NCBI GenBank assembly: GCA_963556145.1
Contig: OY744473.1
Coordinates: forward strand, 310,001 to 374,000
Length of the DNA stretch: 64,000 bases
Source: Hygrocybe punicea
Lineage: Eukaryota > Basidiomycota > Agaricomycetes > Agaricales > Hygrophoraceae
Reading direction: 5' to 3'
A model generated the notes under the pieces. That model saw only the letters and a program-made list of their open reading frames with translations, was not told the origin of the DNA and did not search any database. This document shows, one piece after another, positions 1,868-10,500 of this stretch. The position numbers and the translations under genes were made by a program. Numbering within the stretch: position 1 is the stretch's first letter; every line of letters starts with the position of its first letter.

Positions 1868-1899
1868 CCGGCTCAGGTCTGGCCAGCTTTGGCTTAGGC

Positions 1900-2090
1900 C
1901 TAGTCTCGGTTCCAGACGTTCTAGTCGCAGCTATTTGGTAGCTTACGTCAGTTCCGGAGTTATCCTTGTTGGAGCTCCAAATATAGTCCTGGACGTTGCG
2001 AGTAGAACGTCTGGTGACATTCACTTGGACGGGTGTAGGTCTTCAGCATGTGACCGCTTACATAGAGATTAGATAGTACTTTACTTTGCA
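1900..2090 (+). repeat. Left terminal inverted repeat of the RecQ/DUF6589 element
   Basis: Pairs with 7266-7456 in inverted orientation. The inner 75 bp, around GTCTTCAGCAYGTGACCGCT and GATTAGATAGTACTTTACTT, is almost identical in both arms, while the middle is more diverged. The helicase start codon lies 9 bp inside, so this arm probably also acts as promoter and 5' leader. Confidence 0.85.
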
Positions 2091-2099
2091 AGATACCCC

Positions 2100-4533
2100 A
2101 TGTCCCAGAACGACCGAGCGCAAGAAATCCTCAAAAATGCTCAAAAAGAAGCTGCAGAAAGCCATAGGTATAACAGCCAGGCTACGCGAGACTCCATCAA
2201 AGCCAAATTTGAAGCTACTTTCAATGGAAAATCACCCTACGAATGGCAGATCGACACTACCGAGGCGATCATTCTCGGTTTGGACTGCATCGTGATTGCA
2301 GGGACCGGCACTGGCAAGACGATGCCATTTGTGATGCCCCTGCTTCTTAACGAGAATAAAGATAAGTCAGTCATCATTATCTCGCCACTTAATCAGCTGG
2401 AAGCTGAGCAGGTACGTCAAAACTGTTGCATATATTTTGTTACTTACATCTTTACATCGTTGCAACAGGCAGAGAGATTTAAAAAAATAGGATTGATGGC
2501 TAGCGCTGTAAATGGAGAGACTTACACACCAGAACTCCATAAGGTAAGTCATTCCAAAATAGATCTTTATTTTTACCCGAAAATCTTCCAGGAGATCGAG
2601 AGCCGCCAAGTGTGAGTGCTTGTCACCTCTCCGGAGATGTGCATTGAGCACGAAAAATTCTCAAAAATTCTACATACACCCGAATACTGCAAAAATATGG
2701 TCGCTATCATTGTCGACGAAGCCCACTGCGTTTCTCAATGGGGCGAAAGTTTCCGAAAAAAGTTCGCTGAGCTTGGCAAACTACGGTCCTACGTTCCGAG
2801 CCATGTTCCATTTTTCGCCACCTCCGCAACACTCCCTCCACAAATCCTCGAGGACGTCAAATCCAAACTTTGTTTCTCTCCTACCACCACCTTCATCATC
2901 AACCTCGGGAATGAACGAGTGAACATCACCCCGATGGTTTGCTGGATGAAGGGCGGCGCCAAAGACCTGGCTGCCCTTGATTTTGTTGTCGACGAAGCCA
3001 AGGCCGGCAAGCCTCTCATACGAACCGTCATCTTTTTCAACAAGTGCGAGATAGCCTTTCAAGGCTTTTCTCACCTCCAAGATCAACTTCCAGAAGACAT
3101 GTTTGATCAGATCGATTTCCTGCATGCGGCCCGTACCAAGCGCGCAAAGAACAAAATCATGGATGAGTTTCGATCTGGGAAGCTCAAGATTCTCTGTGCA
3201 ACCGATGCAGCAGGAATGGTAAGTACTTTTTATTACTCACTCTCGTCACTTATGCGGCCCTCTTAGGGAATGGATATTCAAGATATGGAGCGCATTGTTC
3301 AATTTATGATCCCCAACTCCCTTTCAGTTTGGATTCAACGAGCTGGACGTGTGGGGCAATCCGGGGATCAATCGACTGCTATACTCCTTGTCGAACCCTC
3401 TGTTTTTCAATTGAAGAAGAAGAGGGGAGTAGCCGAAGAAATAGAGGATGCAGAGGACGAGGATGAGGAAGAAGACGACCAACGGCCTGAGACCGATCCT
3501 ACTGACTACACGCCCGACCCGCGCTACAAGAAGAAAGTAGAAGGTGGAATGCGAAACCTGGTTGAGGCGGTGGATTGCAGGCATGCCAAGAGTAATGCCT
3601 ACTTCAACAATCCACCGAGCGCAGAAGGTATTTATTTTATCTTCCGTTAAAGTATGTATATTAAGTTTATTTATCCCAGTTCCCGATCGTCTCTGCTGCG
3701 ACAACTGCATCCTCAAGAAATCTGCTGATGGACAAGTCCTTACATCTGCTGCTACAGAATTTCTCGCCCTTTGCACACGCATCGAATCACGAGTCTTACC
3801 GCAGACCATACAACACTATGGCGAGGAAGTACGTGAACATGATTCAGGTGTGGAAGCTGGACAAAAGAAGAATCGCCGCCTGGGTCCTCGCACGAAAGAG
3901 CATCTAGAAGCCTGCCGAAATTCTTTGACTCACTGGCGATCTACTACGTGGAACAACCGTTACAAGTATTGCGCTTGGGGCCCACTATCGTTGCTCCCGG
4001 ACACTGCCCTTATGAAACTCGCCACTCTTGCTCGCATCAAAACTGTTGCCGATATCAAAGAAGAGATTTCCGATTGGGGTTGGGCAGACAAATATGGAGA
4101 TGAGGTATTGCAGCTCCTCAAGCCCATTGACAATGCTTGGAATGAGGAAAATGAGTGGGAGAAGGCTGAGAGGAAGGCCAAGCGCGCTCGTGAAAGTCAG
4201 GAAAATCAGGTCCGGCGATACGAGGAAAGACTTGCAGCAGGTCGTGCAGCCACAGCCCAACGAAGGGCTGCTGCTGCTGCTACAGCTGCTGCTAACTCAT
4301 ATGCGTATCAACCCGTGCTTGCCCCCATATATCCACCACCCCAACAATCATCTGCAGCTTACCCTCCTACCGGATCCTTCGCCAGTGCACCATTTCCCCA
4401 AGGCCAAGGCCCACATGTTACCTCTCCTTTCGCAACATTTCCACTGCCTTATCAACAGACTCAATCACACCCTGTTCAATACCCTGTCGCGTACTCGAAT
4501 TTTATGTCTCATTTCCCATTACATACTCCGTAG
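2100..4533 (+). CDS. RecQ-like SF2 DNA helicase, one premature stop
   Basis: Five exons are inferred: 2100-2411, 2469-2543, 2592-3218, 3267-3627 and 3680-4533, all with GT-AG introns of 48-57 nt, giving 742 codons. Helicase motifs appear in order: Walker A GTGTGKT (residues 68-74), DEAH box (171-174) followed by CVSQWG, ATSAT motif III, FFNK and ATDAAGMGMDI, and a motif VI-like QRAGRVGQ. A CCDNC cysteine cluster follows exon 4. The tail has a Lys/Arg/Glu-rich probable coiled coil and then Pro/Gln/Ser-rich sequence. The product would unwind DNA in the nucleus. Codon 137 is TGA (2613-2615) in otherwise conserved sequence, consistent with CGA mutating to TGA, so this copy is probably inactive unless read through. 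The first intron is a multiple of three and stays open, so its removal rests on splice signals and family fit. It converges on the DUF6589-like gene within the same TIR-bounded unit. Confidence 0.82.
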
Positions 4534-4560
4534 AATACATGTATGTATCGACGTGATGAA

Positions 4561-7255
4561 TCAATAATCATTCCAATCCTCACTGACTGATTTACGGAAA
4601 GATTTCCGAGTCTGAGCGACCCAGTTTTGCATAGTTTTATACAACTTTCCTCCATCCGACCCTTTCCCGATGACATCCGTGACTTTATCCTTGGCATCAA
4701 GCTTCCGACCTGATTTGTATACGTGTATCTTTGACTGTGCGTAAGAGGCTTGCAGACAGGTGACGTCTTCCTCTTTCTCTGGGGACGTGTGCGACTTTCC
4801 TCGGCAAAAATGGTTTATGTCCTCTTCAACATGGTCCTTGACCTTCCGCTGGGTCGGAATTGACGCAGAGATCTTCCCGATATAATCCCATTCAGCATGG
4901 GGACCAATGATGGCAAAAGTGTGCTGAGACAAACAATATAGTCAGACAAACATAGAGTGAAATAGACAGTACCTTGATATCCCGGACATTGTGTTCTTGG
5001 AGTAAATCAATTGGAAGAAAACTGTCCTTCCTTCCTGTCGTGTTGACAAGCCAGCAGTAGTTTCGTATGAAGTCTCTAATAGATTGTTCCAAGTTGTCAG
5101 TTACAAGAGATACAAACTGCAACAACATAGTACTTTGAGTCGCTAGGCCATTCCCGGTGCAAATCCTGAAGAAGTTCGAGAATTTCAATCGCATAATTCT
5201 TGTTGTTGCCGCCAACGAAATGGAAGAGTAATCTTGGCAGCAAATTCTCCAGCCTCCCCACATCGCTGACTTTGATTGCGTTGTCGAACTCCAGGTATTC
5301 TAGTAGGTCCCGAGCCATCTGCACAGATTGAAATAGTGGCTCATCTTTCGTTGACTTCTTTGCAGCCATTTTCAAGAGTGCACTTGAGGATGCGAAGTTG
5401 TCGACTATGCAAGTTGCCAGAAGACGAAGACGGTCAGGGCTTTGTCCCCTCAAAGCTTCCAGCTTATCGACCTTGCCAACGACACACCAGAGATCCCGAA
5501 AGCGAGCTTCGGCGATGTGGTAGAGTGCTTCTTTGATGTGATGATGGAATGCCCCTTGCACTGATGTAGTATTGAGTCCTTTTCTTTTTAGCAGATCAAT
5601 TGCGTGCACAAGTCCGAAGCCCAGCTGAGTTCCATAGTACTGAGTAAAGAGAGATGTTTCAACCGTGATTTGCGCATGAAACCAGCCAAAGACAGTCCTC
5701 AAAAAGTCAAGCCGGTCACAAGAGTTCAGATCCATACAGCGAAACCGTTGGAGACCACGGATACGGGAGACAGTGAGTTGGTCGCCAGCCCAGACAATGG
5801 TATCTTCTTCTCCCATGCGCTTTTGTTCTTCAGGTGAGTCCAGATGGAGTTGTCGCCACCATTCATTGAGAACGCGATCGTTGCCTTCATAGGATGCTTC
5901 TTCCATGTGCACCGTGTTCAGCATATACTGACAGACTGTATGTTGAGCTCCAATTGGCAACTGCTTGACAGGAGGTGGGGGTTTGAAGGTGGCGTGGTCT
6001 TTTTGGCTGTAGGTGTTGAAATCGAAAGCTGGTGCACCAGTCAAGAATGACAAGACACGATGGATAGCGGATGCACGTAGATGAGGCCCTGCGAGTTCAT
6101 CAAGTTCAAGTACGTCTATGAAACTGATGGGATTCCGAGCTCCAACGGCGATCTGGGATTGTAAAGCATGGTTGTTTGGTCGTATAGCAAGTGGGTCTTT
6201 GATAATAAATATTGTAGCCGCAGTGCCACTATCGAAATGACTCTTATTTTCAAGTCGTTGCGAGTAGGCTCGGAAGGGGATGTTGATATTGTCGTGTGCG
6301 CCATACCATGGGTATTTTTTGATGTCTTCTTGCAGATGTCGGTGCGAATCCTTTGAGAGCGATTCCACACCTCGGTATGCCCATTTTTGACTCATAGTGA
6401 TACCGAGAGCGTGAAGGGTGTCGAATCCCTTGGTTGCAAGGCCACAACTCTTAAAATAGATGGTTAAGAGCTTGGGTATCTTGCAACAGTTCCGGGAACG
6501 AGAGAATAACGCCATCGAGATGATCATTAGGACTACCTGCAGACGAAAAAATGTTTAGTGCCTAACCAGTACAATGAATGATAATTTCAGACTGAGTTAG
6601 GATCCTTCACAGTGTTCCCCGATTCTTGCTTCCGTGTTGAAGCCGTGTGGTGAATGAGTTTCCAGACAGTTGGCACCCTTTCCTGGACTTGCGGGACCAG
6701 ATCTCGAAAGCTGACAGAGAGAATAGTTTCCTCTGATACGTCTTTTTTCGGTAGGGCCATCAGAGGTTTGAGATTTGAGAGCTCGACGTCAAGTATTTGA
6801 CAGACAGTGTCGACAGCCCAGCTGTTCATGGTATCTTGGGCAGCTCTTGTACGAACACCTTGTCCATGAGAGCGGCGTGGGGTATGCCAGGCTGCCAGAA
6901 TCTTCGGTAGTTCCTCACTAGCCATCAGTGCAGTCCTAGCAAACTTTACACGGCCATCTTGCTTAAGTTTGGGGTCGTTCCAACTGAGAGCATACAGAAA
7001 AATGGGTAGGTTGAGCTTTAGCGTTGCCATGAGATTCAGTACTTCCAATACACGTTCATGAATGTCACCCATTTTGTCAAGATACTGCCAGTAAGCCTTA
7101 GTTTGTTTCCGGTGTGGGTCATTGTGATTGTGCTCCAGGACTGGTTCCTCGCCAAATAAATCATCGTCAGAGGTGTCGGAGTCGCCAGAGTCAGAATTGG
7201 AACCAAAGAAGTCTTCGTATGTCAAGATCAGACTGGGTTCATTGACAGGAAACAT
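4561..7255 (-). CDS. DUF6589-like protein, candidate mobility protein
   Basis: Inferred exons on the minus strand are 7255-6593, 6536-5134, 5075-4973 and 4923-4561, joining without a frame break into 843 codons; the intron sizes are 56, 58 and 49 nt. The N-terminus is acidic and Ser/Asp-rich (residues 18-35). The core contains GDQLT near residue 472, then DRLDF, FGWFH (about 504-508), LLKRKGL and EARFRDLW. The C-terminal part has YCWLVNTTGR and LPIDLLQEHNVRDIK. I recognise this as resembling the fungal domain of unknown function DUF6589; its biochemical role is not known to me. The conserved acidic residues (GDQ, DRLDF, EARFRD) could form a metal-dependent nuclease or transposase site, which is inference only. 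The gene starts inside the right TIR and is intact here, unlike its helicase partner. Confidence 0.78.
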
Positions 7256-7265
7256 GGTATATGAG

Positions 7266-7456
7266 TGCGACTATGGTAAGTAAAGTACTATCTAATCTCT
7301 ATCTAAGCGGTCACGTGCTGAAGACCTACACCCGTCTAAGTGAATGTCACCAGACGCTCTACAGAGCAACACCAAAAATGAATTTGGAGCTCCGACAAGG
7401 AAAACTCCGGTCTGACATAATAATGCTCATGTAGAGCGCTCTGGGAACGAGACTAG
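7266..7456 (-). repeat. Right terminal inverted repeat of the RecQ/DUF6589 element
   Basis: Inverted partner of 1900-2090. It ends CGAGACTAG at 7456 and is followed by the duplicated target CTTAGGC. The DUF6589-like start codon lies about 10 bp inside, so transcription of that gene probably starts in this arm. Confidence 0.85.
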
Positions 7457-7513
7457 CTTAGGCCATGGCTTTTACTGTCTTAAAAAATTTCAATAAAGAA
7501 AAAGAATCTAGTG

Positions 7514-10500
7514 TTAATCAGAATCATTGTCATCAGTACCTAAAGCCTCATCATCATCATTTTCGATCAGCAGTTCATCCCAACCCTTCTTGTCTGATCC
7601 GTCTTCCTCATCATCCAGGCCGCCGTCAGTCTCTTCCTCTAACTCAGCTTCCACAATTGAAGATGGGGCTACTTCACGGAACAACAGGTCATGTCGAATA
7701 GCACATTTCACACATTGCAAAGCCTCCATAATGTCCCCCTTCAAGCAGCTCCGCCGTTTGCTAACAGTAATCCCACCCTGTGAGAAGGCTTGTTCACTTG
7801 AGACAGAGGAGGCCTTAATGGAAAGGTAATCTCGAGCCAACGAGGCCCAGGCCGGATGGTAACGGTGGGCATTAAACTGTAAAATGAGATGAGCTTCGTG
7901 ACAGAAATGGTATTCTCAAGCCACTCACCCCCCACCATCTAACTGTCGACCAGCCTTTGGGCACTTGTTCCTGAATATCCAGGTATGTGTGGAAATCCCA
8001 CAACCAGGGCCAGTTGGGATCCTCCAGTGTAGCAGGACCTGCTACCAGGCTGGTGTCCTCGTCATCGGAGAGCTCTTGCAAAAGTACATGTATCTTCTTT
8101 TTTTTTGCCTGGCTTGCTTGCTGTGCGCTGACATCACCCGTCAATATCAAATATTGCTCCTTGAACTGAGCAATATAAATTAATATCAATCAATTAGTGG
8201 AACATTAAACTTACAACGTCCTTGGCACACCGTATGACATCATCTTGGAGGTCTGCCGGCCAGTGCTTCTTGAAATATCCTAATTTCTCCCTGGGATCAA
8301 GGACTAGAGAATGTTAGTTAAGCATGAACAATACACAAAGAAACATGGAGCGTATGCATTGCCATGATGTAGGCAGGGGAATCCGTAGTCTTTTCATAAT
8401 ACTCATCAATTTTTGTACAAGTGGCGTTCAAGGCAGCAATGAAGGGGTCATATTTTGAACGCTCAGCTTGAGTGGACCATGCCTTGTGTAAGGCTTCAAG
8501 CGCAGGGATTGCAAGGTGGAGGGTGGCAACTTGATCAGAGGAGAATGATTGTTGGGCATTGTCGGCATGCTGGATGGGTGTCAGAGAGAACTGCATTCAA
8601 CCAAAAGGGAACATACACTGAGAAGACCGAGGAACAAGTGCACTCGCTCCCACTCCTTGGCAGTGAGCTTCAACTGGTGTATTTTGTCACGTTTCATGGA
8701 ATCCGACTCTTCATAGCGTAGTTCATCAACAAAACTTTCAATGTACTGTTGGGAATCCTTTCAATAATGAACCTTGTGAAGACACCTGTACTCGTACCTT
8801 TTTGTTTCGTTCAGCCCAGTCCAGCATTAAGTACATCGATGACCACCGGACCTTCATATCTAATATCAGTTGCACAGGACGCACAACTTGGGCTTTCAAC
8901 TGAATAGTCTTCCACATTTCCTTTCACTTCGAAGATGAACGTTCCTAAGAAGCTTGGATGTCAGTATAGCAGTACATCGCTACAGGGTGTGCAATACCTT
9001 GACTGCGATGGCTCGAATTAACCCCACCTCATCCTGAGACGTTGGTATGTGAGCATCCGGATTCTTTGGGTCGAAATGAGGTGACTTGCTGTAAGTAGTG
9101 ATCAACGCCTGTGTTGCCAGGTTAATAACATGAGCGAGACAGCTGTGTATATAATCATCAATAAAATAATTGGCAATAAAATAATTGGCGACATATTCTA
9201 GACTTACTTGATTTTCTTCTGGCGCCATTGCCATTTTTTCCCCGTAGCTGCCTTCAACCGTGCAGCCATCTCCTTCAGCATCATTGAGTTATTTGATGCA
9301 TTGTCACAAGTGACATGGCCAACCTGCAAGGAGGACATAAGCACCGGCAGGGATGTGGAAGTTGCGGCTGACAACTTACCTTGTGCTCAATTCCAACACG
9401 TTTTGCTATCTTAAACAGAGCCTGACCCAGGCATTCACCATTGTGAGCGTTGCTGACCCATGTGAATCCCAAGAGGCCACTCTTGAGTCCCAATGTGAAG
9501 GACTCGCCTCCTCAATCCAATGTCCCATCACGGCAAAATATCCGTCTGTGTTTCCCGCCTGCCATGCATCACACGTGAGGTTCACTTCTCCAGTAACAGT
9601 CGGACCCTTGAGACAATAAGATGAGAAGAAATGTCACATACGAGGAGTCAAAAGGTCTTCCGCTTACATTGAGTCGAGCCTTCAGATTCATAAGGTGGTC
9701 TTTGAACATCCTCTTGATTTCACCTCGGGTTGCCTTCTGGCCTGGGATCTTGACGCCTTTCATTGCATGGGAGGCAACATCAATCATCTCTTTAAATTTT
9801 GGGTGGTCGAGGGCTTGAATTGGCTACAGGGCAAAAATCAATAACAAATCACATATGAGAAAAGGACCCTACCTGGTCTGTTGATATGAGCCACTCAATG
9901 GCAGCTTGCCGAAACAGTTTGTTGGAGTAAGGGATCACTTGTTCTGACATTTTTTTTTTGGTGAGGTCACGATCCAAGGTTCGGGTGGCCTGTTCGGCAT
10001 CCGCTTTGCATTTCTTGATATCTCCTGGCAGCTTTGATTCATAGTTGGCAACCTTTGCCCAATTGCGATATGCACCCTGGAGAAAAGGTTAGAAAATGAG
10101 CGGAGACACAGAAGAAAGCACGAACAGAGTGGCGTGCTTCCAGATGGTGGCGTGAGGTCATGACTTCGTCGACAATACTCATCTTGGTTCTATAATGGAC
10201 AAAGGTTTTACTATGTAAAGAAAGTAGAAAACACATGCAACCTACAGGCAGAGTTTGCAGGTGCAACACTTTTTCTTTTTCCATTGATCTCCCTAGTCAC
10301 GCTGGCATGGAAGAACTCCTCAACATCATGCCATTTGTCTTCGTGCATTGGGATGTTTTCATGGATATCCTGGACATCAACATCCAGGAGAAAACCTTGC
10401 TCGTCGACAGCTTGTGGATTACCTAGAGTAGGCTGCCTTTTGTTGGCTGCAGCAATGGCACTTAGCACAGACATATAAATAAAAAGTTGAAATCATACCT

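Follow-up and report, generated by a model that had tools for sequence, protein, structure and literature searches.

A 5.6-kb transposon of probable AcademH kind in Hygrocybe punicea carries a RecQ-like helicase gene and a DUF6589 gene that probably encodes its transposase

The window analysed here is a 64,000-nucleotide stretch of the genome of the fungus Hygrocybe punicea (GenBank assembly GCA_963556145.1, contig OY744473.1, positions 310,001 to 374,000 of the forward strand), in which we found a transposon of 5,555 bp (1901-7455) lying inside a hAT element. With good confidence we regard it as an AcademH-like DNA transposon about 5.6 kb long, with a RecQ-like helicase gene beside a DUF6589 gene whose product is very probably the transposase. 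The features, including the terminal inverted repeats (TIRs) and the target site duplication (TSD), are as follows, in window coordinates.

1892..1900, no strand: left TSD, GCTTAGGCC, 9 bp (empty-site comparison, end search)
1901..2086, plus strand: left TIR, beginning TAGTCTCGG (end alignment)
2100..4533, plus strand: RecQ-like helicase gene, with introns 2412-2468, 2544-2591, 3219-3266 and 3628-3679 predicted from sequence
4561..7255, minus strand: DUF6589 gene, putative DDE transposase of 843 amino acids, with introns 6592-6537, 5133-5076 and 4972-4924 predicted from sequence
4994..4996, minus strand: codon of the putative catalytic Glu (QEHN) (alignment)
5781..5783, minus strand: codon of the second putative catalytic Asp (GDQ) (alignment)
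6291..6293, minus strand: codon of the first putative catalytic Asp (HDN) (alignment)
7278..7455, minus strand: right TIR, closing with CGAGACTA (end alignment)
7456..7464, no strand: right TSD, GCTTAGGCC (empty-site comparison, end search)
7517..7915, minus strand: frame encoding the C-terminal dimerisation region of the interrupted hAT element's transposase (Pfam)

A preliminary description of this DNA had claimed inverted repeats of about 190 bp, and these were borne out as imperfect TIRs of about 180 bp, the termini of the element being of the form TAG...CTA. In a global alignment of the outer 190 bp of each side 158 of 200 columns were identical, and the 300-bp ends gave a best local score of 194, against a maximum of 51 among 500 random pairs of 300-bp stretches from the window. 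The flanking TSD is 9 bp long, the only length that fitted of the lengths 7 to 11 tried. A duplication had been described before, as CTTAGGC and 7-8 bp long; the duplication stands and the length does not, CTTAGGC being the core of the 9-bp sequence, and a TSD of 7 or 8 bp was ruled out by a 196-bp derivative of the element and by empty sites (both below).

The right flank belongs to a hAT element (Dimer_Tnp_hAT, E = 3.7e-12), and the flank at 7465-9000 is repeated elsewhere in the genome at 93-97% identity (8 of 44 other matches listed). Junctions were fetched for the six hAT copies whose match starts at most 4 bases from the junction; in all six the site is single (five with GCTTAGGCC, one with GCTTAGGCT) and the adjoining sequence matches both sides, while farther left of the junction copies L076 and L080 diverge and L075 has a short gap. 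These empty sites, which are paralogous copies and not the same locus in another strain, support the TSD and agree with the clean insertion into a hAT element reported earlier. In the same flank, 16 bp ahead of the left TSD of the transposon, lies a fold-back element (1499-1867, ends TAGTGTTGCC...GGCAACACTA) with an 8-bp duplication, CCGGCTCA, at 1491-1498 and 1868-1875; by its look it is a hAT-type miniature inverted-repeat transposable element.

Exactly two genes lie between the TIRs, convergent, spliced and starting at the inner TIR edges as the preliminary description had it, their introns being predicted from sequence and homology together. The RecQ-like gene has its ATG at 2100, 13 bp inside the left TIR, and runs through five exons to a stop codon at 4531-4533. 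Pfam matched DEAD and Helicase_C domains in it, BLM, RECQ5 and WRN are solved relatives of its product, and the best NCBIfam match of its two main pieces was TIGR00614 recQ_fam, with a score under the curated cut-off for whole proteins. In the spliced frame are the strings DEAHCVSQWG and QRAGRVGQSG, which we take to be helicase motifs, and a Cys-rich stretch resembling the RecQ zinc site; by family the protein is presumably a 3'-5' helicase. The spliced helicase gene described earlier is thus present, with the correction that its frame in this copy is broken by an in-frame TGA at 2613-2615. A metagenome protein, P0121, is 93% identical to the helicase exon over 80% of that exon and is by far the nearest among the relatives listed.

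The DUF6589 gene has its ATG at 7255, 22 bp inside the right TIR, and four exons that encode 843 amino acids with no internal stop; a frameshift near 5100 was ruled out, as the intron at 5133-5076 keeps the frame open and continuous. Its main exon matched PF20231 (E = 8e-88), with DUF6589 as the sole Pfam family at E-values up to 1. The fold comparison suggested in the preliminary description was run on a prediction for a relative of the present protein, and the best alignments were to DDE transposases (first 31 rows: Hermes, RAG1, P element and others), Hermes being nearest; Foldseek alone returned matches that were too weak, and the DUF6589 profile found no match among PDB sequences. A D-D-E triad is conserved in the DUF6589 alignment. 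Other acidic residues are conserved as well (D626 in 44/44, E652 in 43/44), but these were set aside and E696 was picked as the third catalytic residue because it stands near the start of a helix after a long helical stretch and about where the alignment end offsets of Hermes, RAG1 and the P element place their Glu (whose residue numbers in those three we assumed). A conserved His is set in GWFH or GLFH. The DDE-like predicted fold of the relative and the conserved triad are our reasons for regarding DUF6589 as very probably the transposase, and the earlier proposal that it is the catalytic one is well supported, by prediction, when the intact gene between TIRs and the repeated 9-bp TSDs are added. 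Of 359 DUF6589 hits 120 were listed, and the named relatives in that list are fungi, e.g., Hermanssonia, Trametes and Tricholoma, which are mushroom-forming.

The preliminary description had also proposed looking for the two genes together elsewhere, and they proved to be paired in the same genome (92.2 Mb, 42 contigs). Searches with the RecQ-like exon piece gave 82 matches, merged into 73 loci, and those with PF20231 gave 103 matches in 72 loci, the counts from both search lists being lower bounds. A RecQ-like locus lay at most 10 kb from 54 of the 72 DUF6589 loci, and 51 of these 54 pairs were convergent; uniform random placement, a control that ignores transposon clustering, linked a mean of 1.25 loci and at most 6 in 1000 trials. 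The two genes also appear to have diverged together, as the identities of DUF6589 and RecQ to the present element (one value per gene, taken by hand) were correlated across 37 pairs with rho = 0.91, the value being 0.87 among the 22 pairs at 40% identity or more and 0.04 among the 15 pairs under that level. In other genomes, four contig sizes of at least 5 kb were common to the contigs with DUF6589 hits (69, from the 120 listed) and those with RecQ hits (19, from 66 hits), an indirect sign of linkage that goes by the size match; in a size-jittering control (contigs under 20 kb) the mean number of shared sizes was 0.13, and none of 5000 runs reached 4.

Several counts do not fit an invariable convergent pair: for 18 of the 72 DUF6589 loci no RecQ-like match lies within 10 kb, 20 RecQ-like loci are unpaired (some of which may be helicases of the host itself), and three pairs are in the same orientation. 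Of the earlier proposal that RecQ is an obligatory partner, linkage and co-divergence thus uphold the travelling together, whereas the partnerless loci and the stop in the present helicase leave "obligatory" unproven. At one locus, L049 (C41:2922039-2925456), a RecQ-like gene adjoins a terminal motif with no DUF6589 match within 10 kb, possibly a transposase-less derivative.

Other copies of the TIR, which the preliminary description had proposed as a check, were found in the genome. A DNA search with the whole element identified the 196-bp derivative (C36:4022865-4023060), made of both ends at 98-99% identity and carrying its own 9-bp TSD, CCAAAGACC; since it is too short for either gene, we infer that its movement must have been in trans. 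In the genome, the terminal motif TAGTCTCGN{2,5}CAGAC occurs 35 times versus 7 for the reversed control, and the motif TAGTCTC, sought in 31 merged stretches (many of which contain part of an element only), yielded three end pairs with a TSD, all of 9 bp. Single terminal motifs stand at C41:2924692, C7:3040310 and C35:4391505.

Altogether 14 loci were traced to their ends, these three pairs included. An exact 9-bp TSD was found at 7 of the 14, namely the present element, the 196-bp derivative, C35:2201399-2206821, C6:2721457-2728125, C34:4657519-4662996, C35:1275456-1280958 and C35:926146-931610; one more (C7:5729554-5734889) matches in 8 of 9 bases. The remaining 6 have no TSD or lack an end: C33:3795905-3807688 has two plausible ends for which no matching TSD was found, and the end search missed one or both ends at C3:508, C3:666, C33:863, C40:522 and C1:541. 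The C33:3795905-3807688 locus is a DUF6589/RecQ pair spanning about 11.8 kb, perhaps a nested insertion or a composite.

At C34:4657519-4662996, C35:1275456-1280958 and C35:926146-931610 DUF6589 is merely 26-28% identical to the present copy, and the 9-bp TSD and TAG...CTA ends are therefore common to distant lineages. In the divergent lineage of L065, L066 and L067 (26-28% identical) the TIRs are different ones (TAGACCGGTGACC or TAGACCTGTGACC, and TAGCCTCGTGACC) and the TSD is still 9 bp. Ends in this lineage were sought in bounded windows around the inverted repeats, any TSD length from 7 to 11 being accepted, and each locus gave one pair, of 9 bp; in a wider duplication search chance pairs beat the true-looking pair at L065 and tied with it at L067, so that the TSDs of these two rest on their position at the inverted-repeat edges. 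Another DUF6589 family is represented by L018 (C33:1291408) and L019 (C40:5223040), two copies at separate loci that share 99% identity over 3.3 kb, a likeness that suggests recent movement or duplication; in the C33 copy, similarity ends within the gene.

In the mechanism we propose, DUF6589 would be an RNase H-like DDE transposase in which a large helical insertion separates the second Asp from the Glu, and, as fold, triad and TSDs suggest, it would bind the TIRs, excise the element and join it to the target with a 9-bp stagger. More tentatively, the RecQ-like protein may assist in unwinding the ends or in the processing of gaps or intermediates, and may have been kept because it moves together with the transposase. 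The helicase gene of the present copy is stopped, and this copy would therefore need a helicase from elsewhere if it is still mobile. A stricter two-enzyme mechanism, unlike ordinary cut-and-paste, in which DUF6589 can act on ends only once the co-mobile RecQ has opened them, or on gaps only once it has processed them, and the helicase sets the 9-bp stagger, strikes us as doubtful.

These results assign a probable catalytic function to a fungal protein family whose function Pfam gives as unknown, and recognising DUF6589 as the probable cutting enzyme is a useful addition to the helicase-bearing group of transposons. They also account for many of the RecQ-like loci of this genome (73 merged loci, with one near 54 of 72 DUF6589 loci), and the co-diverged transposase/helicase pairs, some with exact ends and TSDs, form a natural set for asking what a helicase does in DNA transposition.

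AcademH is reportedly due to Kojima (2020, Mob DNA 11:15). The helicase of such elements belongs to superfamily II. As described, AcademH elements encode a helicase and a DDD/E transposase and occur in fungi or animals; here the helicase gene (DEAD, Helicase_C, RecQ-family relatives; stopped in this copy) lies between the TIRs, the transposase is of the DDE type by the predicted fold of a relative and its D-D-E, and the named DUF6589 relatives are fungi. The AcademH TSD is given as 9 or 10 bp in an excerpt of PMC10045372, in keeping with the 9 bp here; an excerpt of PMC6416283 mentions Academ copies from fungi that have DEAD and recQ_fam domains, and according to a 2024 screen AcademH occurs in low copy number in Basidiomycota, Ascomycota and Mucoromycota (PMC10799480). 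In this comparison of published descriptions, which covered helicase, TSD, transposase type and host, no difference was found. The preliminary description had proposed a DNA transposon class with its own helicase; such a class is not new, AcademH and KolobokH being already in print.

It is rather improbable that the element instead belongs to a separate, unnamed superfamily whose DUF6589 transposases merely resemble AcademH in helicase and 9-bp TSD: the tie to Academ is by description, and the name DUF6589 was absent from the literature searched (PF20231 led to an unrelated mention only), but the element agrees in its type of helicase, in TSD length and in its fungal host with what is printed on AcademH or fungal Academ. 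A KolobokH-like element, i.e., a Kolobok-superfamily transposase with a RecQ helicase, is very improbable. Both have a RecQ helicase, a fungal host and a DDE transposase (here by prediction), and excerpts of PMC9587614 describe KolobokH, with its RecQ helicase, as known from fungi only, and a red-algal Kolobok with RecQ on the complementary strand, as here. The same excerpts, however, give Kolobok a 4-bp TTAA TSD and RR...YY ends, and KolobokH was ruled out on TSD and termini, those here being 9 bp, non-TTAA and TAG...CTA; the conserved His of DUF6589 also counted against Kolobok. In KolobokH the helicase lies downstream of the transposase domain (same source), and in the present element it has a gene of its own, convergent and on the other strand, a weaker argument because of the red-algal arrangement.

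Capture of host genes by a non-autonomous element of another superfamily with its transposase elsewhere, e.g., MuDR, would find room in the 4-10 bp TSD of IS256/MuDR (excerpt of PMC10045372). The 51 convergent pairs, the co-divergence and the predicted DDE fold of DUF6589 make such capture scarcely credible. The weakest alternative, that the helicase is the mobility factor, as helicases are central to Helitrons, and DUF6589 an accessory, has a negligible chance, since the TIRs and 9-bp TSDs, both of which Helitrons lack to our knowledge, rule out a Helitron, a Pfam scan of eight pieces brought up no Pif1, and a DDE fold is predicted for DUF6589.

Among known systems, Helitrons are likewise helicase-bearing fungal transposons and differ in a helicase of Pif1 type, as far as the excerpted sources describe it. 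The hAT (Hermes), RAG1/Transib and P elements provide the best-matching folds for the predicted structure. By sequence, the DUF6589 main exon has no Pfam match beyond its own family at E-values up to 1, and the DUF6589 profile has no match in the PDB. Elements of the hAT and P kinds have 8-bp TSDs, and we know of no RecQ partner for either. AcademX, of the Academ superfamily to which the present element probably belongs, likewise has an accessory enzyme beside the transposase, but has a nuclease in place of the helicase and a TSD of 3 or 4 bp (excerpt of PMC10045372). Because helicase type, fungal host and 9-bp TSD fit what is printed, the element is, by match to descriptions, best filed as AcademH-like.
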